The notes below the pieces were generated by a model. That model ran no database searches. It saw only the letters and a program-made list of their open reading frames with translations, and had not been told where the DNA came from. This document shows, piece after piece, positions 10,104 through 46,692 of a stretch of DNA of 46,692 nucleotides. The stretch is taken from positions 1 to 46,692 of the IMG/VR virus record IMGVR_UViG_3300024518_004576. One strand, 5' to 3'. Position 1 is the stretch's first letter. The number at the start of each line of letters is the position of its first letter. The position numbers and the translations under genes are program-made. The stretch comes from a virus.

Positions 10104-10228
10104 CGACCGACGAGAGGGTCACCGACTCCTACCACACAATAATCACTCAATGGACGCTAGATGACTATCTGGAGTGCAGGGAATACCTAGCGGCCCTTGA
10201 CGAGGCCGCCGCCCGAAAGGCACCGTAA
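9669..10228 (+). CDS. Tail assembly chaperone, -1 frameshifted (GT-type) product
   Basis: A -1 shift at T TTT TTA joins 116 zero-frame residues to 70 residues from the other frame. The extension reads SRPGLVRPTPAGARRLRIPS, WLDATVWGVATDERVTDSY and a helical DDYLECREYLAALDEAAARK end, all protein-like, and it stops exactly at the tape measure start (TAATG). This mirrors lambda G/GT. The total is about 186 aa. The coordinates include the re-read base at 10016. Confidence 0.85.
10010..10016 (+). other. Programmed -1 ribosomal frameshift site (T TTT TTA)
   Basis: The heptamer TTTTTTA is positioned in the zero frame as X XXY YYZ (GGT TTT TTA GCC). It is the same heptamer used by HIV-1. The -1 frame beyond it is open for 70 codons and ends at the next gene. 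GC-rich sequence follows, but I did not identify a clear stimulatory stem. Confidence 0.88.
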
Positions 10229-11949
10229 TGGCCCTCCGCGACATACTGGCCCGCTTCAGAATCGACGTTGACGCCGGCGCGCTTCGCAAGGTGGACCGAG
10301 GTCTGACCAAGACCAAGAAGTCCACCGAGGGCCTTCTGACCTCTCTCGGAGGGCTGCAGACGGCATTCGCGGCGGCGGGCGCTGCGCTAGCTGGCAATGC
10401 GTTGCGCGCGTTCGTAGGGGACGCGCTATCGGCCGCGGACGCCATTGATAAGATGTCCAAGCAGGTGGGGCTGGCCTCGGATGAGTTCCAGATTCTGTCT
10501 CAGTTCGCCTTGGAGTCAGGCGCATCCGCGGAGGATCTCCGGATCACCCTTAAGTCCCTCAGCAAGAACGCGGTCCTGGCGGCAGGCGGCAACGCCCAGA
10601 TGGTCACACGGTTCACGGACCTGGGCATTGCCGTCAAAGACGCCAACGGTAAACTCAAGTCCACGGCCGACCTGCTGTTCGAAACGGGCGGCGCGTTAGG
10701 TGACCTGGAGAACCCCACGGAGAGGGTCGCTAAGGCACAGGGGATCCTGGGAGAGGCGAGTTTGAAACTCCTTCCAGGGTTTGAAGCAGGTTCAAAATCC
10801 GCCGATGCGCTAAGACTTAAACTTCAAGACCTAGCGGTGGTGTACGACAAGTCTTTCATAGCCCAGTCCGTACGAGCGAAAGATGAAATCTCCCGGCTGC
10901 GTCTGCAGTTCGAAGCGGTCCGAGTCTCTATCGTCTCGCGCTTCTTGCCGGGCCTCATCAGGACCGTGGTCCGCCTGCAACCGATGATCCGTGCCTTCTC
11001 CAAGTGGACGAAGTCTGCGCAGGCAGGGCGTCTCGCTACCATCGCGCTCGGTGGGGGTATGCTGCTTGCGGCGTCGAAGGCGGGGCCTCTCTTGCGGGTC
11101 CTCGCCCTACTGGGCCGCGTGTTTCTGAAGTTTCTCCTGCCCATCGCGATCATCGAGGATCTCTGGGTCACGATGCAAGGAGGGGACTCCGTCACCAAGC
11201 GTTTGGTGGACGGACTACTGGGCATCGGCACGACCGCGAAAGTCGTGAAGTTCCTACAGCGTGGGTGGGACAACATGTTCGCGTTCCTCGACCGTCGAGG
11301 CCCCCAGGTGTGGGAAGGTCTTACCCAGGGGGTGGCGGACATGATCCAAGGCGCCGTGGATCTGCTCGCTTGGCTCTCAATGCAGTGGGACGAAAACTTC
11401 GGTGGCATGCTCTCCAGCTTCGAAGGCTTCGGCAAGGGCGTAGGCAACATCATTGATCTGTGGATCGTGGCCCCGTTTCTGTGGGCGGTAGGATTGATCT
11501 CCGACGCCTTCTTGAGCATCTCAGTCTCGTTCAACGCCGTCCTGGCGAGTATCGTCGAGACGGTTACAGGATGGGCGGGTTCGTTCTTCGACGCCGTCTT
11601 CGACGCACTCACGCACCCTTTTGATACGGCCGTGGTCTACATCAAAAACCTGTGGTCTGGGATTAACTCCATCATCGAGGGGGTTAAATCCGTGGCTGGA
11701 GCGGCCGGTGAATTCCTGGGAGGGGCGGCACAGTCGCGGCTTGGCGCCCGCGCGGAGCAGCTGGGCACCGCGGCGCGGAGCAGCTCCTCTACGACTAATT
11801 CGAGATCCACGACCATTAACGATCACCGTAATCTCACAATTAGCTCTGGATCCGGGAATACTCGGGATTTAAATCGCGCCGCGAGCACACTCACCGGTGT
11901 GTTAAATCGCGACCGCCGCAGCACCCTTGCCGGGGTCGGGGCGGGGTGA
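10228..11949 (+). CDS. Tape measure protein
   Basis: This 573-aa protein follows the frameshifted chaperone. The N-terminal part is helical and Ala/Gly-rich, with the tail-length-protein segment AADAIDKMSKQVGLASDEFQIL. Several hydrophobic stretches occur in the middle (ATIALGGGMLLAASKAG, LLGRVFLKFLLPIAII) and another near residue 430, as expected for a protein that enters the membrane on ejection. The C-terminus is Ser/Thr-rich. At about 1.5 angstrom per residue this predicts a short tail of roughly 85 nm. A 194-bp non-coding stretch follows. Confidence 0.88.
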   Translation: MALRDILARFRIDVDAGALRKVDRGLTKTKKSTEGLLTSLGGLQTAFAAAGAALAGNALRAFVGDALSAADAIDKMSKQVGLASDEFQILSQFALESGASAEDLRITLKSLSKNAVLAAGGNAQMVTRFTDLGIAVKDANGKLKSTADLLFETGGALGDLENPTERVAKAQGILGEASLKLLPGFEAGSKSADALRLKLQDLAVVYDKSFIAQSVRAKDEISRLRLQFEAVRVSIVSRFLPGLIRTVVRLQPMIRAFSKWTKSAQAGRLATIALGGGMLLAASKAGPLLRVLALLGRVFLKFLLPIAIIEDLWVTMQGGDSVTKRLVDGLLGIGTTAKVVKFLQRGWDNMFAFLDRRGPQVWEGLTQGVADMIQGAVDLLAWLSMQWDENFGGMLSSFEGFGKGVGNIIDLWIVAPFLWAVGLISDAFLSISVSFNAVLASIVETVTGWAGSFFDAVFDALTHPFDTAVVYIKNLWSGINSIIEGVKSVAGAAGEFLGGAAQSRLGARAEQLGTAARSSSSTTNSRSTTINDHRNLTISSGSGNTRDLNRAASTLTGVLNRDRRSTLAGVGAG

Positions 11950-11981
11950 GTAAGGTTTTCATGCAGTTAAAGGTGAAATCA

Positions 11982-12124
11982 CTGAACAATCGATCACAAC
12001 GGCACCCCCCCGCGTGTGCACCCAGACTTATAATAGAGATCCTTTAATAGTATATAGGTAATAGTAAAATATATAGATAGTATAGGAAGTTCGGACACAC
12101 ACGCGGAGGTCTCTGAGTGTGATC
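11982..12124. repeat. AT-rich palindromic cassette, copy 1
   Basis: Positions 12006-12106 (101 bp) are the exact reverse complement of 44547-44647, and a flanking 19-bp piece (CTGAACAATCGATCACAAC at 11982-12000) also has its reverse complement at 44653-44671. The centre is about 65 bp of nearly pure A/T with repeated TAATAG/TAGTATA motifs in a GC-rich genome. The ends carry CCGCGTGTG in inverted orientation, and GATCACA (11992-11998) is mirrored by TGTGATC (12118-12124). The cassette fills the gap between tape measure and Dit-like genes and has no reading frame. Its role is unknown: replication origin, bidirectional regulatory site or MITE-like element. Confidence 0.9.
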
Positions 12125-12143
12125 AACCTTTCAGTGATTCAAA

Positions 12144-12944
12144 ATGGCATTCCCTCAAATTCCTTTCCTGCCCCTCCCAGACCCAACTGTGCAGGGTTTG
12201 ATGAAATGGGTCGACACCATCGGCGCGACGAAGTCTCTCAACGGCGTGGTGCGTAACTACGACGACGAGTCCACGGCGGAGGTGACGGCCCATCCCGTAG
12301 CGGACGGTAGTGTCGTGACCGATCACGTCATCCAGAATCCGCAGACCCTCACTCTCGAGATCATCTCGTCGAACACCCCCATCTCGGACACCCCCGGGTT
12401 CTCCCGGAAAGAGCTGGACCTGACTTTCCCGAAATCCCGTTTCACCCCTCGAGGCCTGCTCCTGCTCACACGGGGTGCAGGGTTGGTCGTAGGTGCCGCC
12501 GTGAGCGCGTTGACGGGAGCATTCGGGGTAGAGACTCCTGGTGCGGCAAAGTTCACCACGCTGCAATCTGACGGAACGTTTGTTGACATCATCAACAACC
12601 TGCACACACTTCTTCTTCAGCTGAAGCAGTCGCCCCCCGACAGCGGCGTGCTGGTGTCAATAGGCGGGAGGGAGTATAATCAGTATTTGCTGAACCGCGT
12701 CACGAAATCGGTCTCATCCGGATCCGGGGGGCTTGCCACCTTCGCGGTGGACCTGGTACAGTTCAGAACGGTCAGCACGGCGAGCGTGCCTCTACCGGAT
12801 CCGAGCAAGTCCATAGCGAAGCGTAACAAAGGCCGCGGGAACAAACCTGCGCAACCCCAGACGGATGACGAGGCTGACGCCCTGATCGGGGGAAATCAGT
12901 CCCTCCTCGCTAGTGGCGCAGACGCACTCGGCGGACTCCTATGA
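12144..12944 (+). CDS. Dit-like baseplate/tail hub protein
   Basis: This 266-aa protein follows the tape measure, where a Dit-like protein is expected. Visible blocks are TVTAHPVADGSVVTDHVIQ-like strands (EVTAHPVADGSVVTDHVIQN), IINNLHTLLLQLKQSPPDSG and a final Gly/Ser region. The pattern fits Dit-like N-terminal domains that cap the tube at the baseplate. There is no clear Shine-Dalgarno before the ATG, and the AT-rich cassette lies just upstream, so expression may depend on it. Confidence 0.7.
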   Translation: MAFPQIPFLPLPDPTVQGLMKWVDTIGATKSLNGVVRNYDDESTAEVTAHPVADGSVVTDHVIQNPQTLTLEIISSNTPISDTPGFSRKELDLTFPKSRFTPRGLLLLTRGAGLVVGAAVSALTGAFGVETPGAAKFTTLQSDGTFVDIINNLHTLLLQLKQSPPDSGVLVSIGGREYNQYLLNRVTKSVSSGSGGLATFAVDLVQFRTVSTASVPLPDPSKSIAKRNKGRGNKPAQPQTDDEADALIGGNQSLLASGADALGGLL

Positions 12945-13276: not shown

Positions 13277-13344
13277 TACCCCCCGAACTAGTTCTCGCCG
13301 CGCTCATCTGGCTCGGGTGCGTGTACTGGACGGAATGTAAGTGA
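13273..13344 (+). CDS. 23-aa membrane peptide coupled to the SPFH gene
   Basis: MIPPELVLAALIWLGCVYWTECK is a single hydrophobic segment with a short charged end. It starts in an ATGA overlap with the plug gene and stops in a GTGA overlap with the SPFH gene, so it is embedded in a coupled chain. That arrangement, not homology, supports it as real. It may be a membrane anchor or partner of the SPFH protein. Confidence 0.5.
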   Translation: MIPPELVLAALIWLGCVYWTECK

Positions 13345-13868
13345 CATCCAGCATTCAAGCCATCGTCGATTTGCTCCGAACGTTCTGGCAATGGGTGCGC
13401 CCATTTGTTGTGATTCCCGTCTTCGCACGCGGCGCGCGCCTGACGCTTGGGACACGGCCTAAGATCCTGGCGCCAGGGTTCCACCTCTTGATGCCCTTCG
13501 CGCACTCGTGTGACGTGGTCAACGTGGTGCCTTGGGTGGAGATGCTCGCGATTCAATCCGTCACGAGCAAGGACGGGGTCTCTCTACACGTCAGCGCGAC
13601 GATCACGTGTGCGGTGGAGGACGTCGAGCTTTATCACCTCCGTACGGAATCCGGAAGTGACTCCGTGTACGAGGCGGCGCGCGGGGTGCTGGGGGACTTC
13701 ACCCGGCGTAACCGTTCGGGCCGATTTCTCGCGGGCAGGTGCGACCGCACTATCGAGAAAGCGATGCGCGTTGAACTCCTCAAGTGGGGGGTGCATCTCA
13801 TCTCCGTGAAATTCCCGAATCGCGTGAAAGCGAGAGCGTATCGCCTCATTGGAGGGAATGAGGGATGA
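13341..13868 (+). CDS. SPFH/band-7 domain protein
   Basis: This 175-aa protein has a short hydrophobic N-terminal segment (WVRPFVVIPVFARGARL) followed by an SPFH core. GTRPKILAPGFHLLMPFAHSCDVVNVVPW corresponds to the conserved G-x-x-x-x-x-x-PG-x-H-x-x-x-P block. TSKDGVSLHVSATITCAVEDVE matches TxDGxxxxVxxxxxYxVxD, and the terminal part carries LLKWGVHLISVKFPN. Such proteins form membrane-associated ring scaffolds (prohibitin, stomatin, HflK/C). A copy among baseplate genes is unexpected. It could organise the host membrane at the injection site or modulate FtsH. The start GTG overlaps the micro-gene stop. Confidence 0.8.
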   Translation: MTSSIQAIVDLLRTFWQWVRPFVVIPVFARGARLTLGTRPKILAPGFHLLMPFAHSCDVVNVVPWVEMLAIQSVTSKDGVSLHVSATITCAVEDVELYHLRTESGSDSVYEAARGVLGDFTRRNRSGRFLAGRCDRTIEKAMRVELLKWGVHLISVKFPNRVKARAYRLIGGNEG

Positions 13869-19374: not shown

Positions 19375-19865
19375 AACACGCGCTCACAAAATGGCTCGTC
19401 CTGGCAGGGTTCGCCCTCACCTCCGGCTGCCCCCCGAGCACTGTCTCCCTGGACCTGAACGCCCCGGGCGTAGCCACGGACGTGCGCGCGATCTCCGCTG
19501 CGCTGGATATCTGGGAGGAGACGTTCGTGACTCGAAAAGACTTCGCGATCCTCACGACCCACGGGCTGGTGAAGAACGCGAAGGGCAAAACGCTCATGGG
19601 TCGCGCGATCTGCCTACCACACTACACAGAGATCACGATTTTCGTGGACGCGGTGCCCCGAGCCAACTATTTCAACGGAGTGGTTTGGACAACGCTGCAT
19701 GAGATGGCCCACGTGCATCTGTCGTGCAAAAATACCGATCACATGGAAGGGACCGTACTGGCGAAGTCCGGCCCCGGGGAGCCCAGGATTGACTGTGCCT
19801 CGTTCGAAAAGCTGGTGGCGTACGGGAACACACCTAAACCAGGGGTTGACTTGTGCGCGCCCTGA
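19371..19865 (+). CDS. Lipoprotein with HExxH zinc protease motif (paralogue 1)
   Basis: A 164-aa protein with a signal peptide (MKHALTKWLVLAGFALTSGC) ending in a lipobox-like Cys20. A conserved DIWEETF block follows, then LHEMAHVHLSC, a minimal HExxH zinc site with a nearby Cys, and Cys residues later that may pair. The next gene shares DIWxxxF and LHE(L/M)AHV plus Cys. A third HExxH lipoprotein is at 1025. I choose TTG at 19371 because it overlaps the previous stop (TTGA) and gives a complete signal peptide. Substrate and role are unknown. Confidence 0.78.
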   Translation: MKHALTKWLVLAGFALTSGCPPSTVSLDLNAPGVATDVRAISAALDIWEETFVTRKDFAILTTHGLVKNAKGKTLMGRAICLPHYTEITIFVDAVPRANYFNGVVWTTLHEMAHVHLSCKNTDHMEGTVLAKSGPGEPRIDCASFEKLVAYGNTPKPGVDLCAP

Positions 19866-20284
19866 TTTTCCCCCTGCTGTTGGCCGGGTGTCAGACCGAC
19901 GCCGCAGACGAAACCCTCTATCTGGAGCACGCGGATCAAGTTCACGAGGTGGTCGCCGCCTATGACATTTGGCAGCAGCGGTTCCCCGCACCCCGCACCA
20001 GCCTCCACGTGGACCGACATTTGCCCTCCCACGATTACCGGATCGGGGAGACCCGTTGTAAGCGAGTGCGGGAGAAGATACGAGCCGACGGGCAGGATCT
20101 GACCGGTACCGTGTTGCACGAGCTAGCGCACGTCGCGACGGAGTGTCTGGAGCCCCATACCGTGAGCCCCCTGAGTTTTTTCCACGACACCGTGGGAGGT
20201 CGACATTTCGATTGCGAGACGCAGAAGGTCATCGCGAAGTACCTCCCCTCCTACTCAAAAGAATGCAACGATGCCGAATTTTGA
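19853..20284 (+). CDS. Lipoprotein with HExxH zinc protease motif (paralogue 2)
   Basis: A 143-aa protein with a perfect lipobox (MRALIFPLLLAGC). DIWQQRFPAPRTSLHV is followed by VLHELAHVATEC (HExxH) and a later FHDTVGGRHFDCE that could supply a third ligand. It is a tandem paralogue of the previous gene, which it overlaps. It precedes a small membrane protein. Possible roles are envelope remodelling at lysis or superinfection control, but there is no direct evidence. Confidence 0.78.
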   Translation: MRALIFPLLLAGCQTDAADETLYLEHADQVHEVVAAYDIWQQRFPAPRTSLHVDRHLPSHDYRIGETRCKRVREKIRADGQDLTGTVLHELAHVATECLEPHTVSPLSFFHDTVGGRHFDCETQKVIAKYLPSYSKECNDAEF

Positions 20285-22294: not shown

Positions 22295-24475
22295 ATGAGC
22301 GAGACCTGCTGCGTCACTGCATATTCCGCACTGCTAAACACCAAGCCAGCTGCGCAGAGTATGCAGCTAACGTGGACGGATTTCTGCCAGCTCTTCGGAG
22401 GTTGGAGATCGACGAAGTCAAAGACCGCGTCTCCGCTCTGGTCGCCTACCATCGTAGAGGGGACGCGGGCGAACGCTAACGTCCGCGCCTGTGGTCCCTT
22501 AGTGCTGGACCTGGATGACGGCAGCGCGATGGCGGTGCTCGAGAAGGTCCAAGCGGACGGCCTGGAATTCATCTTCCACACCACGCATTCCACCACGGAC
22601 GAGCATATCAAGGGGCGGGTCATCATCCCCCTGTCGGAGGAGTGCAGCCCCGAAGCCTTCCGGTCGGTGTGGCAGTACGCCGCCAGACGCTTCAGCGGAG
22701 CGGACGTGGCTTGCAAAGACGTCTCCCGCGCCTACTACCTCCCTCCGGAGGGGTGCGTCTACACGCACGTGAAGGGCAAGGCGCTGGACGTGGACTCCAT
22801 CCCAGCGCAAACCTCCGTCCCCACGGTGCCCCTCGCCCCGCTGGACGTCACCCCGGAGGATCTCGTCCGCCTGGCCAAGGCTCTCGGGAAGCGCACCTCA
22901 CACAACAGCCAGGTCGCATCCCGCTCTCTCCTGAAGGTGGCCGCCGGGGAGGCCTATGCGGTGGACGGAGAACGGAACAACCTCACTTACGCCCTAGTGG
23001 GCTTCGTGGTCCGCCGCTGGCCGACATGCAGCCCCATGAGTGTTGCTGCGGTGTTCGGCCCGAGCCTTAGTCACATGGGCGACGACTGCCCAGACGTGGA
23101 GGGCATGGCGGCGCGGCTGCAGCAAGCCATCGCGGAGGAAGCCAAGCCTACCTACTCGGGGTTCTTCGACAGCGAGCGCACAAACCCGCTCACCGAGCGA
23201 GAGTTAGACGACATGGCGGCAGGGTTGGAGATGGATCGCGCCATGCTCGAGAGAACCTGGGCACTGAGGTATAGAGGCGGGGAGATCTACATCCGCAACG
23301 GACAGGGGAGATACAACTCCCTGGACCCCAGGGCGTTCTCACCGCAGCGAGACCTGGCCGCGGTGCCGGGACTCCGCACCACTCGGCAGACCGATGCAGG
23401 GGAGATAGGGCTCAGCCCAGGGGAGTTCCTGGACACCTGCTACCGCATCACGGAAGTGCGATACGACTACGAGATCCCCGCGTGCCGCGTACAGAACGGC
23501 ATGCTGCTGCAACCTGTCCCGCGAAAGGTTCTGTCGCCGGAGTATCACGCGCCGTTTCAGGAATGGTTTGAGACTCTGGACATCCGCGTGCAGGATTGGA
23601 TCGTCCGCGCTATCAAGGAGCCCGGCCCCTGCCTGCCCGCCTTGGTGTTCCACGGTGAGCGCGTGGCGGGCAAGTCCTTGTTTGCGGAGGCGCTCGCACG
23701 GGTGTGGGAGGCGAATCGTTACTCGGAGTGGGCCGAGGCTATCTCCGAGAATGACGCGGGTAACCTTGCGCATACGCCGGTGGTGTTTGCAGACGAGTCG
23801 TTCGAGGCGGATGCTGAGCAGATCCGCAAGCTGGTCTTCCGCGCCACGACGACCATCCGTGCGAAATACCGCGCGGCCACGTCGGTGTCTGGCAACCTGA
23901 GGATCCTGGTGGCGCTGAACAACCTGGCGAAATTCAAGCTCGGGGGCAGCCTGAACTGGGAGGAGGTGCAGGCCACCGCGGAGCGCCTCATCTTCATCCA
24001 GGTCGGGCCCGACACCCGAGCGGTGATCGAGAAACACTTCCCCCACTGGAACACGTGGAAAGAGGATCACACCCTCACCCAGCACCTGCTGTGGATCGCG
24101 GAGAACCACACCCCGGAGACACACCACACGAGGTCCGGCTTCCGGCAGGACTTGGGCGCCGTGGCACTGCTGGCGTCAAAGACAGGACTGAGATCCAAGA
24201 TCTGCCAGTGGTGTGCGGAGTACATCCTGTCGGGTGCCGTGGACTCCACCGGAGGGAAGGACTCGATTGAGCTCACCGGCGAAGGCCTGCTCATCTCCCC
24301 TCGGATTCTCGAGCGCTCTTGGGGTGTACACGGCACCGGGCGGGCGCCCGGACTGGACGCCGTAGCCTCCGCCCTCGAAGGGATTTCGGAGAAAAGAGAT
24401 CACAGGCACTTGATCTCTCGCGAGGTCCTGTTAGGCTGGGCTGCAGACAAATCCTACCCATCGTTATTCGACTGA
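22295..24475 (+). CDS. Primase-helicase (primase-like N-terminus, SF3/D5-type ATPase)
   Basis: In this 726-aa replication protein the first 160 residues contain LVLDLDDG and later VSRAYYLPP, the pattern of archaeo-eukaryotic primase-like domains in bifunctional phage primases. The C-terminal half has a Walker A (FHGERVAGKSLF), a Walker B (PVVFADESFE) and a sensor-like RILVALNN, consistent with a D5/SF3-type hexameric helicase. It starts the replication operon behind its own promoter. The last codons lie within one arm of a 19-bp inverted repeat (24463-24481). Confidence 0.82.
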   Translation: MSETCCVTAYSALLNTKPAAQSMQLTWTDFCQLFGGWRSTKSKTASPLWSPTIVEGTRANANVRACGPLVLDLDDGSAMAVLEKVQADGLEFIFHTTHSTTDEHIKGRVIIPLSEECSPEAFRSVWQYAARRFSGADVACKDVSRAYYLPPEGCVYTHVKGKALDVDSIPAQTSVPTVPLAPLDVTPEDLVRLAKALGKRTSHNSQVASRSLLKVAAGEAYAVDGERNNLTYALVGFVVRRWPTCSPMSVAAVFGPSLSHMGDDCPDVEGMAARLQQAIAEEAKPTYSGFFDSERTNPLTERELDDMAAGLEMDRAMLERTWALRYRGGEIYIRNGQGRYNSLDPRAFSPQRDLAAVPGLRTTRQTDAGEIGLSPGEFLDTCYRITEVRYDYEIPACRVQNGMLLQPVPRKVLSPEYHAPFQEWFETLDIRVQDWIVRAIKEPGPCLPALVFHGERVAGKSLFAEALARVWEANRYSEWAEAISENDAGNLAHTPVVFADESFEADAEQIRKLVFRATTTIRAKYRAATSVSGNLRILVALNNLAKFKLGGSLNWEEVQATAERLIFIQVGPDTRAVIEKHFPHWNTWKEDHTLTQHLLWIAENHTPETHHTRSGFRQDLGAVALLASKTGLRSKICQWCAEYILSGAVDSTGGKDSIELTGEGLLISPRILERSWGVHGTGRAPGLDAVASALEGISEKRDHRHLISREVLLGWAADKSYPSLFD

Positions 24476-24577
24476 GCGGGGTGCATACTAGAGCGAGTTG
24501 ACCTTCGCTTTACTCCCTGGCTCCCCATTTAAGGGTGCAAAAGGGTTTGGTCGCCTTTCCCCGCTCAGTCGAATAAC
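24463..24577. repeat. 19-bp perfect inverted repeat around the end of the primase gene
   Basis: GTTATTCGACTGAGCGGGG (24463-24481) has its exact complement at 24559-24577, separated by 77 bases. The left arm covers the last codons and stop of the primase-helicase gene; the right arm ends just before the ribosome binding site of the next gene. A stem in the mRNA could stabilise the transcript end or control the downstream start. Alternatively the arms are protein binding sites. The loop holds TTGACC but no good -10. No T-tract follows, so this is not a standard terminator. Confidence 0.85.
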
Positions 24578-26009: not shown

Positions 26010-26965
26010 TCACTGTCTCCCCTTCCCAACTCGGGCTGTACCAGCGCTGCCCCCGGCGCTGGGCTTTCCGTTACATCGGGAAGATCAAACCACCGCGGCC
26101 CTCCTATTACGATTTTGGGGACAGCGCGCACAAGTACCTGGAGAATTGGTACCGTGACGGCGCGGCGATTGATACGAGCACCAAGGAGGGGGACCTGGCG
26201 CATCGGCTCTTGGACATCCTGCCCTCCCGAGGCGCCTCCGCACCGGAGCTGCACTTCGTCCACCCTCTCTGCGAGGGCGTGGAACTTCAAGGGTACATCG
26301 ATCTACTCACGCCGGACGGAGACGGGTGGGCTGTAGACGACTACAAGTTCTACGCCACCATGGATTACGCGGAGACGGAAGCGAGTCTCGCGGAGAATCT
26401 ACAGGCAAACATCTATTCGTGGGCCACTGGGGGGGACTGTACCTTCTCCATGAACTACGGGCTCAAAAAAGCCAAGACGGTCGAGAAAGTTTCTCGCTGT
26501 ATGCCTATTGCGGAGACGACCAAATTCGTGCAAGGTCTCGTGCCTACGGCGAGATTGATCGTCGGCCACCTTGCACGAGGGGACGTCAACGCTGTCCCCA
26601 GAAACCCAACGGTGTGTGACCACACCAGTGACGGCTGCCCCTACGGGGAGCGATGTAACCTAGGAGAAATTGAGATGGACCAGGAATTTATGCAAAGACT
26701 AGAGGCGATGAAGGCGAAAGCCGCGGCGGAAGCGGGAGTAAATCCCCCCGAAGCCGCAGAGTTGGAAACTCCCGCGCCCCCGCCCGAGCCGGAACCCGAG
26801 CCGGAACCCGAACCTGTGAAAAAACCACGCGGCCGCCCGCGCAAAGCTCCCGTGACAGCTGCCCCACCGCCGCCCTCACCTCCGGCTGCCCCCGCGCCTG
26901 CCGAGACGAAGCTCGCGATCCCCGTCGGAGGCACGGTCACGATCACGATCCGGATCGAGCCGTGA
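26000..26965 (+). CDS. Cas4/RecB-like PD-(D/E)XK nuclease with AT-hook tail
   Basis: A 321-aa protein. The start (TVSPSQLGLYQRCPRRWAFRYI) is the typical SxSxLxxYxxCPrrwa box of PDDEXK_1 nucleases; GDSAHKYLENWY and then GYIDLLTPDGDGWAVDDYKFY give the catalytic D...DxK. The terminal cysteines (VCDHTSDGCPYGERC) together with the first Cys are the usual Fe-S ligands. After residue 225 a low-complexity tail follows with PEPEPEP repeats and KKPRGRPRKAP, a textbook AT-hook, so the nuclease may be tethered to AT-rich DNA. Likely role: DNA end processing in recombination or replication. The GTG start is approximate; TTG at 26006 is possible. Confidence 0.8.
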   Translation: MPLITVSPSQLGLYQRCPRRWAFRYIGKIKPPRPSYYDFGDSAHKYLENWYRDGAAIDTSTKEGDLAHRLLDILPSRGASAPELHFVHPLCEGVELQGYIDLLTPDGDGWAVDDYKFYATMDYAETEASLAENLQANIYSWATGGDCTFSMNYGLKKAKTVEKVSRCMPIAETTKFVQGLVPTARLIVGHLARGDVNAVPRNPTVCDHTSDGCPYGERCNLGEIEMDQEFMQRLEAMKAKAAAEAGVNPPEAAELETPAPPPEPEPEPEPEPVKKPRGRPRKAPVTAAPPPPSPPAAPAPAETKLAIPVGGTVTITIRIEP

Positions 26966-31800: not shown

Positions 31801-32480
31801 GAGCCTACCATATTACATCCGACACCCTCCGTGACGGACGGCCCCTCCCCGCCATCGGTGAGACACTCCACCACGACGGTCCCGTGCGGCTCTGCGCCAG
31901 TGGACTCCACGCCTCAATACACATACTTAACGCCCTGAAATATTGCCCGTACAACCCTACGTGGATCCATGTGGTGGAATGTGAGGGAGAAATCCAACAG
32001 GGAAGCGACAAACTCTCCTGCAGCCAACGCACCATCGTGGAATCCCATCCGTGGGACACCCGTGCCGTGGTGATTCTGGCACTGGAGTGCGCCGCGCTAT
32101 CCTGCGCCTCCGCGGGGGCCCCCTACCAGGATCTGTTAGACGTGGCCCACGATCCTAATAGTACATGGCAGCAGATGCAATCCGCCGCCCTCGACGCCTA
32201 CGACGACGCCCTAGCCCCCACCGCCCTCACCGCCCGCCACGCCTACCTTGAGGCCTGCTCCGACGCCGCCCTCACCGCCCGCTACGCCGCCTACGACGCC
32301 GCCTACACCGCCCGCTACGCCGCCTACGACGCCGCCGCCCGCGCCGCCAACGCCGCTGCCAACGCCGCCAACGCCGCTGCCGCCGAAGCCGCCGCCTACA
32401 CCGCCTACACCACCGCCCTCCCCGTGTGGGAGACCGGGGAACTGCGAGCTGTCGAATTACTGACGGGAGGCGCGAAGTGA
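31797..32480 (+). CDS. DUF7666-like protein with Ala/Tyr-rich repeat tail
   Basis: A 227-aa protein. The first 110 residues (GRPLPAIGETLHHDGPVRLCASGLHASIHILNALKYCP, WIHVVECEGEIQQGSDKLSC, RTIVES) match a domain I know only as DUF7666-like. From about residue 130 a long repeat region begins with AAYDAAYTARYAAYDAAARA units, then NAAANAANAA. This low-complexity helix resembles the tiny TKAEL proteins and may share their origin. The DNA behind it is a GCC-rich repeat prone to slippage and unequal recombination. Confidence 0.6.
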   Translation: MRAYHITSDTLRDGRPLPAIGETLHHDGPVRLCASGLHASIHILNALKYCPYNPTWIHVVECEGEIQQGSDKLSCSQRTIVESHPWDTRAVVILALECAALSCASAGAPYQDLLDVAHDPNSTWQQMQSAALDAYDDALAPTALTARHAYLEACSDAALTARYAAYDAAYTARYAAYDAAARAANAAANAANAAAAEAAAYTAYTTALPVWETGELRAVELLTGGAK

Positions 32481-35887: not shown

Positions 35888-36621
35888 CCGGATGCGATAT
35901 CAGCAAGTACCAGGCCCCCAACGCCTCAGGAGAGACGTTCCAAGTAGGAAAGGGGTTCCATGCCTACGACACCTTCGACTTCCTCTATATTAGAGCGTTC
36001 TACGGAGATCGGGAAGACCGCTCCGTAGCGAATCACTCGTACAACTGTCTACGCGCAAACGTGCCCTACGGCTATTACCAGTTCTGGCGCCCGGGCTGTT
36101 CCGTTCCCGCGCCTGAGGCGTTGGGAGGCGCGAGCCTAAGGATGGCATTGGACGTGGAGTCAAATGACAAGTACGATCCACCACTGACCTCCAGCTCCGC
36201 CTCTGAAATCATGGAGTACCTGAGGCAGTTTCGGGCTGAGCATGGGTACGATCCGGTCATCTACACGAGCCAGAGGGACTGGGGCAAGCTCGGGATCCCT
36301 TATCCGACCCAATGCCCCTTGTGGGTAGCTCACTGGACGAATGCCCCCGACCCGGCCCTGCCTGCAGGCGCAGAGGACTACGCGATCTGGCAGTACAGTA
36401 ACAGTGGGGGGAACTTGGACCTCGACAGAGCGGAGAGCTTGGAGCCGTTCCTGATTCCGTCTAAATCCAGTGACACCACACCCGACTTAGATGGGGAGCT
36501 AATCACTCTCGCGGAGGCCTACGTCAAGGAGATGGTAGGCTACGCCGGCTCCGCGGAGGATACAGTGAACCTCGCCTACGAGACGGCCGCTCTCGTACTC
36601 GCCCGCCGGAGGGGGGAGTGA
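35881..36621 (+). CDS. Endolysin, glycoside hydrolase family 25
   Basis: A 246-aa muramidase. GCDISKYQ (Asp6) at the start, MALDVES (Asp91, Glu93), PVIYTSQRDW, LWVAHW and YAIWQYSNSGGNLDLDRAES are the GH25 landmarks. The C-terminal 45 residues form a helical tail (LITLAEAYVKEMVGYAGSAEDTVNLAYETAAL). No signal peptide is visible, so a holin is needed; none is adjacent, and candidates are the small membrane proteins at 20271, 24719 and 29111. The ATG at 35881 begins the domain exactly. Confidence 0.9.
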   Translation: MLAGCDISKYQAPNASGETFQVGKGFHAYDTFDFLYIRAFYGDREDRSVANHSYNCLRANVPYGYYQFWRPGCSVPAPEALGGASLRMALDVESNDKYDPPLTSSSASEIMEYLRQFRAEHGYDPVIYTSQRDWGKLGIPYPTQCPLWVAHWTNAPDPALPAGAEDYAIWQYSNSGGNLDLDRAESLEPFLIPSKSSDTTPDLDGELITLAEAYVKEMVGYAGSAEDTVNLAYETAALVLARRRGE

Positions 36622-37139
36622 TCCGGTATGAAGTCTGGACGCTGCACGCCTCCGGCAAACAGCTTCTCGCGTCGGTGTGGCTCACACGGGAATCCGCAGA
36701 CGGGCACGCGGGTTGCCTGGACTCCCAGCGCAAGGCCTGGGAAAGCTGGCCGATCTACCATGTGGTGGAGGGGATTACCATGCCGGAGCGGGAGGGTATT
36801 TACGACTACCGCGGGGCCTCGTACCGCATTACAAAATTGATTACATCGTGCCCGACGTGCGGGCACCCCCACGCAGAGGACTCTCTGAAGTGCCGCGCAT
36901 GTGAAAGAACGGCAGAGGCCCAAACGGAATTGGACTCCTGCAGTGATGGCGTCTTTTACGTGGGGTACAACGAACGCGCAAGGGAGTCGAAAGCTAAGCT
37001 CAAAGCTAGGGTGGACGAGGCGTGGGCCGCTTACGACGCCGCCTATTTCAACACCCGTGCCTCCAGCGCCGCCTACGATGACGCCCGTGCTGACTACCTC
37101 GAGGCCTACGAGGCCTACGAAAGTGTAGACGATGAGTGA
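36618..37139 (+). CDS. Zinc-ribbon protein fused to a TKAEL-type acidic domain
   Basis: A 173-aa protein in three parts: a beta-rich N-terminus (IRYEVWTLHASGKQLLASVWLT), a CPTCGH...CRAC zinc ribbon (about residues 78-96) and a C-terminal module KAKLKARVDEAWAAYDAAYF ending in EAYEAYESVDDE. The last part is clearly a member of the tiny acidic protein family at 36-942. So the module exists both free and as a fused domain. The function is not known. Confidence 0.72.
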   Translation: MIRYEVWTLHASGKQLLASVWLTRESADGHAGCLDSQRKAWESWPIYHVVEGITMPEREGIYDYRGASYRITKLITSCPTCGHPHAEDSLKCRACERTAEAQTELDSCSDGVFYVGYNERARESKAKLKARVDEAWAAYDAAYFNTRASSAAYDDARADYLEAYEAYESVDDE

Positions 37140-41852: not shown

Positions 41853-42040
41853 CACCCCGTCCCTTCCGCAAATGGCAGTTACCCCGCTGGATTGACCACA
41901 CTGTGTCCTACCTCTACCTGCGCATCGTGGGGAGTAGATGCATAGGCTGTGGCGCCTCCCTCCCGTGGGACGAGCACCTATGTGAGGATTGCAGGCGGAT
42001 CGATCACTCCATGGACGGCTGCCGTGGCCTCCCGTCGTAG
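41849..42040 (+). CDS. Zinc-ribbon microprotein
   Basis: A 63-aa basic protein with CIGCGASLPWDEHLCEDCRR, a CxxC-CxxC zinc ribbon. GTG start overlapping the previous stop. It overlaps the start of the minor head gene by 17 bases. The function is not known. Confidence 0.68.
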   Translation: MTPRPFRKWQLPRWIDHTVSYLYLRIVGSRCIGCGASLPWDEHLCEDCRRIDHSMDGCRGLPS

Positions 42041-42671
42041 GAGATCGCTGAAGGCCCGCAAAGGGTCCCGCAAAGCGAGCCGATTCAACGACCTCCAGGC
42101 CGCTCGCATGGAGGTCGTTTACCGGAAGGGCATTAAGGCGGGCCGCGTCTCTCGATCCCTCTCTCTGGAGATCTGGCGCATAGGAGAGCGCAGCGTGCGC
42201 AAGGTCGAGGGTGACATCCTCAAGATCCCAGGGATCGCTCCTGACGTATTCGAGGGGATTGATTCGACCAAGAGCTTGGCGAAGTTTCGCCGCACCAATG
42301 TGGACTTGATCAAGGACCTCACCCAGCAACAGAGGGAGGCCGTCTCCCAGACGTTGCAGAACTTTCGGGACGCCCGACCGAAAGAGCTCGCCGAGGAGTT
42401 GCGCCGGGTGACCGGGGTTAGTCAGGCGAAGTCCGACCTCTGGGCGAGGGACCAGACTCTAAAATACCACAGCCAGATCGACGAGGCCCGCGGTAAGACC
42501 GCCGGGCTGGAGCACTATATTTGGCGCACGGCGGGTCCAGGGGACGAGCGCACTCGCGAAAGTCACGCCGCGCTCGAGGGCCTGCGCTTCCATCGGGGCA
42601 ATCCCCCGGAAGTAGGCCATCCCGGTGAAGATTACCAATGTCGATGTATTCGTGAATGGGTGCTGACGTGA
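42024..42671 (+). CDS. Minor head protein (Mu gpF / SPP1 gp7-like)
   Basis: A 215-aa protein. The basic N-terminus (ASRRRRSLKARKGSRKASRF) is followed by helical regions and the conserved end YIWRTAGPGDERTRESHAALEGLRFHRGNPPEVGHPGEDYQCRC, the hallmark of the SPP1 gp7/Mu F head morphogenesis family. It probably acts in capsid assembly or DNA ejection. The GTG start at 42024 is my choice, because the basic stretch begins there; the frame is open a little further upstream. Confidence 0.85.
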   Translation: MASRRRRSLKARKGSRKASRFNDLQAARMEVVYRKGIKAGRVSRSLSLEIWRIGERSVRKVEGDILKIPGIAPDVFEGIDSTKSLAKFRRTNVDLIKDLTQQQREAVSQTLQNFRDARPKELAEELRRVTGVSQAKSDLWARDQTLKYHSQIDEARGKTAGLEHYIWRTAGPGDERTRESHAALEGLRFHRGNPPEVGHPGEDYQCRCIREWVLT

Positions 42672-44336: not shown

Positions 44337-44345
44337 GGAACCGAA

Positions 44346-44371
44346 AGCCCGGCCACATGGTCGGGCTTTTT
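44346..44371 (+). terminator. Intrinsic terminator after the 43455 gene
   Basis: AGCCCGGCC (44346-44354), a 4-nt loop and GGTCGGGCT (44359-44367), a 9-bp stem with one G-U pair, followed by TTTT. It marks the end of the accessory unit that begins at 43238. Confidence 0.9.
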
Positions 44372-44405: not shown

Positions 44406-44485
44406 CGGAGAAAATCATTTTTGGATTTAATTCGGCAATAAAGATCGGAGGGAAATCATTTTGTGGATTTAATTCGGCAATAAAG
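44406..44485. repeat. Two tandem AT-rich direct repeats (about 40 bp)
   Basis: Two copies (44406-44443 and 44446-44485) share GGATTTAATTCGGCAATAAA and an upstream AAATCATTTT. They lie in the 416-bp gene-free stretch 44295-44710. With only two copies this is not a CRISPR array. The AT richness and the palindromic cassette next to it suggest an origin-like or regulatory region. Frames on both strands crossing it are simply the repeat translated. Confidence 0.8.
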
Positions 44486-44532: not shown

Positions 44533-44671
44533 ACAACTGTAGCCCCCCGCGTGTGTGTCCGAACTTCCTATACTATCTATATATTTTACTATTACCTATA
44601 TACTATTAAAGGATCTCTATTATAAGTCTGGGTGCACACGCGGGGGGCTACAGTTGTGATCGATTGTTCAG
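44533..44671. repeat. AT-rich palindromic cassette, copy 2 (inverted)
   Basis: Positions 44547-44647 are the exact reverse complement of 12006-12106. In this copy the ends form a 23-bp perfect terminal inverted repeat (44533-44555 and 44635-44657, starting ACAACTGTAG), enclosing 79 bp of mostly A/T. A further 19 bp outside (44653-44671) match the flank of copy 1. Copy 1 lacks the perfect ends, so the palindrome is longer here. It lies between the terminator at 44371 and the gene at 44711. Confidence 0.92.
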
Positions 44672-46103: not shown

Positions 46104-46396
46104 GCACCACATCGAAAAGTTTCTGGGAGTCTGTCGACTCGATAGCCGATGAGGCGCGCCACGAGCGCACCCTACGCGGCTTCCGGCACGAACCCTGTGG
46201 ACACTGCTCGAGCTCGGGCAGAGAGCCGGGTAGTAAATGGGCATACGTGGATGCTGATGGGTATAGATGCGTGGGCTATGCCAACTGCACCGAGTGCAGC
46301 GGGAGACGGTATCTCGTTGCCGACGTGACGCCAGAGGAGCAGGACGCCGCCCTTACACTCGAGATTGCCAGGCTGCAGAAAAGGTTGTCTAAATGA
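46100..46396 (+). CDS. DnaJ-like zinc-finger protein
   Basis: A 98-aa protein with CGHCSSSGREPG and CTECSGRRYL, the CxxCxxxG pairs typical of DnaJ-like zinc centres, followed by a helix (DAALTLEIARLQKRLSK). It overlaps the first array gene by four bases. The function is not known; it may bind nucleic acid. Confidence 0.65.
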   Translation: MSTTSKSFWESVDSIADEARHERTLRGFRHEPCGHCSSSGREPGSKWAYVDADGYRCVGYANCTECSGRRYLVADVTPEEQDAALTLEIARLQKRLSK

Positions 46397-46578
46397 CGAA
46401 AGCTGAACTCAAAGAACGGTTGGACCAGGCGAGGGTAGTCTACGACGACGCCCTCGGTACCGCCGCCGCTGCCCGCGACGCCCTCGGTACCGCCCGCGAC
46501 GTCGCCGACGACGCCCGTGTCGTTTACTGCGCTGCGCGGGAGGCCTACGAAAGTGCGACTGATGACGACGAAAGCTGA
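46393..46578 (+). CDS. Small acidic Ala/Asp-rich protein, first TKAEL array member
   Basis: A 61-aa family member (MTKAELKERLDQARVVYDDA) with GTAAAARDALGTARD repeats and an acidic end (ESATDDDES). Its first 31 bases after the initial AT are identical to those at 38-68 and 46567-46597. The left end of the window lacks this unit (172 bp), so it is probably lost in part of the population. The function is not known. Confidence 0.72.
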   Translation: MTKAELKERLDQARVVYDDALGTAAAARDALGTARDVADDARVVYCAAREAYESATDDDES

Positions 46579-46692
46579 ACTCAAAGAACGGTTGGACGCA
46601 GCGCGGGCCGATCTAGACGCTGCCTATTGGGTTGCGTGGATAGCTGCCGGCGCTGCCGACGCTGCCGACGCTGCCGACGCCTACGCCGCCGC
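46562..46692 (+). CDS. TKAEL array member, cut by the window end
   Basis: This frame starts MTTKAELKERLDAARADLDA inside the end of the previous gene and is cut by the window edge. From 46567 it is identical to the gene at 36-251, so it is the same gene seen from the other side of the circular junction, with a slightly different start. Confidence 0.75.
   Translation, partial: MTTKAELKERLDAARADLDAAYWVAWIAAGAADAADAADAYAA
46567..46692. repeat. Terminal overlap, right copy (matches 38-163)
   Basis: The last 126 bases are identical to positions 38-163. Closing the molecule through this match gives about 46,529 bp. Confidence 0.85.

Follow-up and report, generated by a model that had tools for sequence, protein, structure and literature searches.

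Inverted AT-rich stem-loop cassettes in a PrimPol-encoding phage as candidate replication-initiation elements

Why does a phage genome carry the same non-coding segment twice, in opposite orientations and among its late genes? The question is raised by virus record IMGVR_UViG_3300024518_004576, whose 46,692 bases (the window, that is, the whole stretch of DNA analysed) belong to a contractile-tailed phage encoding a PrimPol–SF3 helicase protein. An earlier note on this DNA listed four possible roles for the repeat: paired replication origins, a site inverting 32 kb of the genome, a regulatory site or a MITE-like element without a transposase. Paired origins are the best supported of the four by comparison with relatives, although GC skew is silent. 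We give a probability of roughly 0.55 to the reading that the two copies, A and B, are displaced, duplicated replication-initiation elements resembling the stem-loop origin of plasmid pRN1.

Identity of the two cassettes

Consistent with the earlier note, positions 12006–12106 (A) are the exact reverse complement of 44547–44647 (B), the maximal exact identity extending over 101 of 101 bases, and the neighbouring 19-mer CTGAACAATCGATCACAAC recurs in inverted orientation on the B side. By chance, an inverted 101-mer without mismatch would be expected about 1e-50 times. A MAFFT alignment of A and B shows 19 identical nucleotides followed by a short divergent stretch, the 101 identical nucleotides and renewed divergence, with 96% identity over 131 nt. 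The two are the sole copies in the 46,692-base record, where exact occurrences of the CCGCGTGTG and CACACGCGG arms are likewise restricted to A and B. Among 37 genomes compared, only this phage contains a dispersed inverted repeat exceeding 31 nt.

Cassette A: 12006–12106, plus strand; 101 bp identical (inverted) to B, with a 79-nt, 71% AT loop between CCGCGTGTG arms.
Cassette B: 44547–44647, minus strand; exact reverse complement of A.
19-mer CTGAACAATCGATCACAAC, A side: 11982–12000, plus strand; common to B.
19-mer, B side: 44653–44671, minus strand; common to A.

The copies are separated by 32.5 kb, or by 14.0 kb along the complementary arc. The genome reaches its highest AT content in islands at these two regions, which provide the AT-rich unwinding region of iteron-type origins such as the SPP1 ori. 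AT content is 59% in the 101-bp segment and 80% in a 61-bp core (12024–12084), so that the core earlier described as about 65 bp of A/T is A/T-rich but not pure A/T. In agreement with the earlier note, neither copy lies inside a gene: all reading frames across A are broken by stop codons, and B is not covered by any annotated-type open reading frame.

Selection, recent copying or gene conversion was offered as the cause of the identity, and selection or recent copying is a fair inference, the copying being undatable since no homologous cassette was found. An assembly error is an unlikely source of the repeat, because the two ends of the contig share an exact 126-bp repeat, which points to a k-mer exceeding the 101-bp repeat in length.

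Stem-loop anatomy

Both copies can be drawn as large stem-loops around the same AT-rich loop. In A, a dyad overlooked in the first reading extends beyond the 101-bp segment and comprises three nested stems (11977–11986/12130–12139, 11991–11997/12118–12124 and 12010–12018/12098–12106) whose centres coincide within half a base. Its 26 paired bases are reached in 0 of 500 local shuffles, the shuffle maximum being 16. In B, a single perfect stem (44533–44555/44635–44657) encloses the 79-nt, 71% AT loop common to both copies, and folding relative to shuffles gives a z of about -8, as RNA or DNA; both strands fold strongly.

Extended nested dyad of A: 11977–12139, no strand assigned; stems of 10, 7 and 9 bp around a single centre.
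B stem-loop: 44533–44657, no strand assigned; 23-bp perfect stem, 79-nt loop, folding z about -8.

A blind detector (stem of at least 9, loop of 65–140, AT-rich loop) applied to the whole window finds exactly A and B. Since the arms of B are perfect and the middle arms of A are imperfect, B may have undergone palindrome correction, or A may have decayed. An Rfam 15 search returned no match at gathering scores, only hairpin matches far below cut-off at B, and a tRNA search found none.

Genomic setting

A occupies a 194-nt gap between the tape-measure and Dit-like tail genes, and B a 380-nt gap behind a gene without assigned function. The late genes flanking A and B keep the conserved family order on both sides.

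Tape-measure gene: 10228–11949, plus strand; left neighbour of A.
Dit-like tail gene: 12144–12944, plus strand; right neighbour of A.
MuF-like head gene: 41949–42671, plus strand; directly followed by a DUF2213-type gene in relatives, the B segment lying between the two here.
Intrinsic-terminator-like hairpin with a T-run: 44344–44369, plus strand; an inverted repeat just upstream of the B region.
Two AT-rich tandem copies: 44412–44485, plus strand; 26-nt shared unit with a period of about 42, next to B.

The tape measure–Dit junction, where A lies, is closed in G027 and G035, the two relatives whose gene order is that of the window, and the MuF–DUF2213 junction, where B lies, is closed in several relatives; both cassettes are therefore probably insertions in this lineage. 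The AT-rich tandem pair lies between the terminator-like hairpin and B and has no further copies in the window. Cumulative GC skew, which the earlier note suggested checking, has no turning point at either copy (its minimum falls at 20–23 kb and its maximum at the contig end, neither significant), and AT skew has none at A or B.

Searches for cassette homologues

The BLASTN search suggested in the earlier note yielded no homologue: nothing significant was returned for A against phages or for B against plasmids. Scans of IMG/VR for the exact cassette pattern gave no match, and comparison with 50 relative records gave weak matches of 15–26 nt only. When the core is compared with the AT-rich islands of relatives, that of G004 scores above all of 300 shuffles (0/300), a similarity that is no more than suggestive, given the many comparisons and the AT-rich sequence, and is seen for G004 only. 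Sheath and DNA polymerase, used as single-protein baits, retrieved no relatives.

Pattern scans for the arm pair in IMG/VR and GTDB genomes returned seven loci, which have no comparable AT-rich core and were taken as unrelated. A separate non-coding hairpin is conserved between a viral contig (L004, 7940–8150) and a Desulfoscipio geothermicus genome (L008, 2765–2975); the element in the latter has no Rfam match.

The PrimPol–SF3 protein

The phage encodes TerL, portal, MuF-like, tape-measure, Dit-like and baseplate hub proteins, together with a family-A DNA polymerase, a helicase and a 726-residue primase–SF3 protein (DUF5906-like). The latter gives a DUF5906-like match just below the Pfam cut-off as well as primase matches, and archaeo-eukaryotic primase (AEP) and SF3 motifs are present in its alignment. 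An AlphaFold2 model built with 24 homologues has a pLDDT of 81.7 and a pTM of 0.56, so that the domain folds are credible but their arrangement is not. Foldseek relates this model to the C-terminal region of NrS-1 PrimPol (E 4.5e-8), the SaPI5 primase-helicase (about 1e-6) and African swine fever virus PrimPol (6e-9), and phmmer against PDB sequences gave no match. By its motifs and predicted fold, the protein is a PrimPol–SF3 protein, and the phage is thus, like pRN1, a replicon with such a replication protein.

PrimPol (archaeo-eukaryotic primase)–SF3 helicase (DUF5906-like) replication protein: 22295–24475, plus strand; putative partner of the cassettes.
Third large stem-loop: 24463–24577, no strand assigned; perfect 19-bp stem and 77-nt loop, overlapping the PrimPol stop codon in a pRN1-like position.

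The PrimPol gene is 10 kb from A and 20–22 kb from B. The third stem-loop, of which about 2e-5 are expected by chance, shows no homology to A or B, and the AT content of its loop is only 49%. As a pRN1-like origin candidate it equals or surpasses A and B; it could serve as main origin, with A and B in an auxiliary part, or all three may be used.

AT-rich cassettes upstream of PrimPol in relatives

Searches of IMG/VR with a TerL and a helicase alignment retrieved 80 loci each, and 36 relative phage records were read whole. The 28 of these that have a PrimPol gene, all distant relatives, form the comparison set; searches detected no homologue of the cassette among the relative records. Nonetheless, a comparable architecture is found beside PrimPol. 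In 18 of the 28, the most AT-rich 100 bp of the genome lies at -300 to 1500 bp upstream of the PrimPol open reading frame (1.1 expected, p 6e-19), a value that, like the p-values below, overstates the independent evidence because some of the 28 records are related to one another. Likewise, 9 of 16 detected clusters of AT loop and inverted arms fall within 1.5 kb upstream of PrimPol, an interval that makes up 3.3% of the sequence (p 4e-10), and none is so placed, with no such concentration, upstream of the helicase or TerL gene. The arms are real rather than a product of local composition, since inverted arms are observed in 10 of the 28 and 0.53 are expected (p 1e-12) when the sequence is shuffled in blocks of 25 bp so that the AT island is preserved. 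Two-sided compensatory arm changes distinguish the related phages G029 and G028, G052 and G056, and L123 and L179. Sequence thus changes with structure kept in the PrimPol-upstream cassettes of relatives, a comparison for which A and B have no homologue.

Most of the relatives' islands are surrounded by iteron arrays, with up to 13–14 copies of 7-mers, for instance TGCGGAAC repeated eight times at 11-bp spacing (G023) and CTTCGTA nine times at 13-bp spacing (G062). A stem with AT loop but no 7-mer array is found in G029, G028 and G047, which gives the window's iteron-free form a precedent in the family. An AT core with iterons and inverted arms next to an initiator gene has, anatomically, the appearance of an origin. 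SaPI origins offer a comparison for such iteron-bearing, AT-rich islands upstream of PrimPol. In the window, no iteron cluster is present at A or B, and neither an AT island nor an iteron cluster lies beside PrimPol; a strict detector found no cassette in G027 or G035. Iteron-like GACGGCC arrays, with 20-bp and 10-bp spacing, were also noted about 2 kb upstream of PrimPol in G050 and G058.

Comparison with known replication systems

pRN1, a plasmid with a PrimPol–SF3 protein, requires for its replication a 100-bp stem-loop (21-nt stem, 58-nt loop) that is functional when moved and is conserved in structure, not in sequence (PMC4234260). Like this element of the ORF904-encoding plasmid (PMC4234260, PMC3869888), A and B are non-coding stem-loops of about 100 bp with a large loop in a PrimPol–SF3 replicon, B with a stem of 23 bp and A with a 9-bp inner stem and nested outer stems. 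The pRN1 element is, however, a single copy directly 3' of its gene, whereas A and B are two inverted copies at 10 and 20–22 kb; the place next to and 3' of the replication gene is taken instead by 24463–24577. With its PrimPol–SF3 protein assembling on a relocatable stem-loop, pRN1 is the best mechanistic model.

In NrS-1, PrimPol has two recognition sites, one per strand (PMC7102993). NrS-1 thus resembles the window in its replicative PrimPol with a helicase-like C-terminal ring and in its two sites, one on each strand (PMC7102993, PMC8718748); its sites, however, are 8 nt long and central, whereas those of the window are 101-bp cassettes 32.5 kb (or 14 kb) apart. A and B are also analogous to ssiA and ssiB of RSF1010/IncQ, a pair of sites for single-strand initiation that an AEP primase recognises and from which the strands are primed separately (PMC4538821, PMC6925257), but the ssi sites lie together in oriV beside iterons, and A and B are far apart and iteron-free, with putative primase recognition. 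In phage SPP1, about 13 kb separates two AT-rich origins, one of which lies in a late-gene moron segment (PMC6316719). Its oriL and oriR are, as A and B, two AT-rich elements on a circularised genome of similar size, with oriR and B among late genes and an A–B arc of 14.0 kb; unlike A and B, which are iteron-free and accompanied by PrimPol–SF3, they rely on gp38-bound direct repeats and a DnaB-type helicase (PMC6316719). The relatives' islands share with A and B an AT-rich core between inverted arms, but they are one element beside PrimPol, usually with iterons, and the window has two, elsewhere, with none. The likenesses to pRN1, NrS-1, RSF1010 and SPP1 are to be read as analogies of working, not as claims of membership.

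The literature searched for replication origins of PrimPol phages yielded only pRN1-like plasmids and one suggestion, by the pRN1 authors, that phage BIP-1 has the same type of origin (PMC4234260); such origins are almost uncharacterised. The cultured phage BPP-1 has a stem-loop of the same architecture about 0.5 kb from its PrimPol gene (26607–26710; L284 2608–2711), with a 22-bp stem of tandem TTGCCTCG boxes and a 60-nt, 65% AT loop.

Proposed role and alternatives

Observation covers the identity of the copies, their dyads, the family-wide association of AT-rich inverted-arm cassettes with PrimPol, the covarying arms of relatives and the unusual placement in the window. Beyond this we infer an origin function for the elements of relatives, membership of A and B in that functional class, binding by PrimPol and activity of both copies. 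A and B would then be identical cis-acting initiation elements, each with an AT-rich core that melts easily and is flanked by inverted arms able to extrude as a stem-loop; the PrimPol–SF3 helicase protein probably assembles at the cassette, melts the core and primes synthesis. The single element that relatives carry just upstream of PrimPol, usually with iterons, is absent from that place in the window lineage, which would carry instead an iteron-free stem-loop version twice, inverted, in the late region. The copies being inverted, each strand of a circular genome has one copy in the same polarity. By analogy with RSF1010, PrimPol–SF3 might prime each strand once from two identical, widely separated stem-loop sites on opposite strands, the pair having replaced a lost ancestral iteron origin beside PrimPol, an elaboration we hold as tentative and rather doubtful. 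Against an origin function stand the distance of A and B from PrimPol, their lack of iterons and the lack of a skew signal, as well as the cassette-free state of G027 and G035 under the strict detector and the competing candidate at 24463–24577. The comparison yields a testable, family-wide candidate location for the origin, an AT-rich core with inverted arms upstream of PrimPol, and one lineage in which the element has apparently been moved and doubled in inverted orientation, where strand-by-strand priming is directly testable.

The position of A and B at gene-block borders, A before the Dit-like and baseplate genes and B behind a terminator and before the genes that follow, would also suit an AT-rich promoter or operator, or a transcript-processing hairpin, ahead of late-gene blocks. 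The terminator-like hairpin and AT-rich tandem repeats preceding B agree with such a regulatory role, and the AT-rich dyads upstream of PrimPol in relatives, which often lie between divergent modules where promoters are also expected, could be early-gene operators. However, a scan for sigma-70-like promoters found no site in A or B and no enrichment across the relatives' cassettes over shuffles, and the iteron arrays of relatives, spaced at 9–13 bp, suit origins at least as well. Moreover, the copies are inverted and the genes run in the same direction, so that a directional signal would serve both only if bidirectional; we consider the regulatory site proposed earlier conceivable but unlikely. 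The lack of promoters also weighs against an antisense RNA pair, in which RNA from B, complementary over 101 nt, could anneal to the Dit-like gene's leader. Inverted copies among plus-strand genes would indeed give perfectly complementary plus transcripts, and both strands fold strongly, but the Rfam result described above and the usually single-copy state of the same architecture in relatives make this reading highly improbable.

Two identical copies with inverted arms, at junctions closed in gene-order relatives, might equally be a MITE-like or passively copied mobile element with inverted termini and no functional role. Terminal inverted repeats are indeed present, but no flanking direct repeat marks a target-site duplication, the match between A and B ends at different points on each side, and no further copy was found in the window, in phages or plasmids or by the IMG/VR pattern searches. 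The phage has no detected Y1 transposase, integrase or resolvase, and the architecture agrees with the PrimPol-linked cassettes of relatives, so that the MITE-like element of the earlier note appears quite improbable. Recombination between the copies, inverting 32 kb or the complementary 14-kb arc, is very unlikely. A and B are perfect inverted repeats able to recombine, and 101 bp is long enough for homologous exchange. However, no Phage_integrase (tyrosine) or Resolvase (serine) domain was found in the phage, a host recombinase being conceivable, and the sequenced arrangement around A and B is the collinear late-gene order of the family. Common isomers should, in addition, break a short-read assembly at the 101-bp repeat (k near 127, as deduced from the 126-bp end repeat), but the contig spans both copies.

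Other features of the genome

Three further features of the window were noted. A protein with an SPFH/Band_7 domain, unusual for a phage, is encoded inside the tail gene block (13341–13868). A family of small, repeat-containing genes rich in Ala, Asp and Tyr occupies 187–462, 700–942, 32177–32426, 36618–37139 and 46395–46692; several have the common start KAELK..., and the contig ends, with their 126-bp exact repeat, fall inside this family. Three small proteins, encoded at 1025–1468, about 19391–19865 and 19853–20284, carry HExxH metalloprotease-like motifs.
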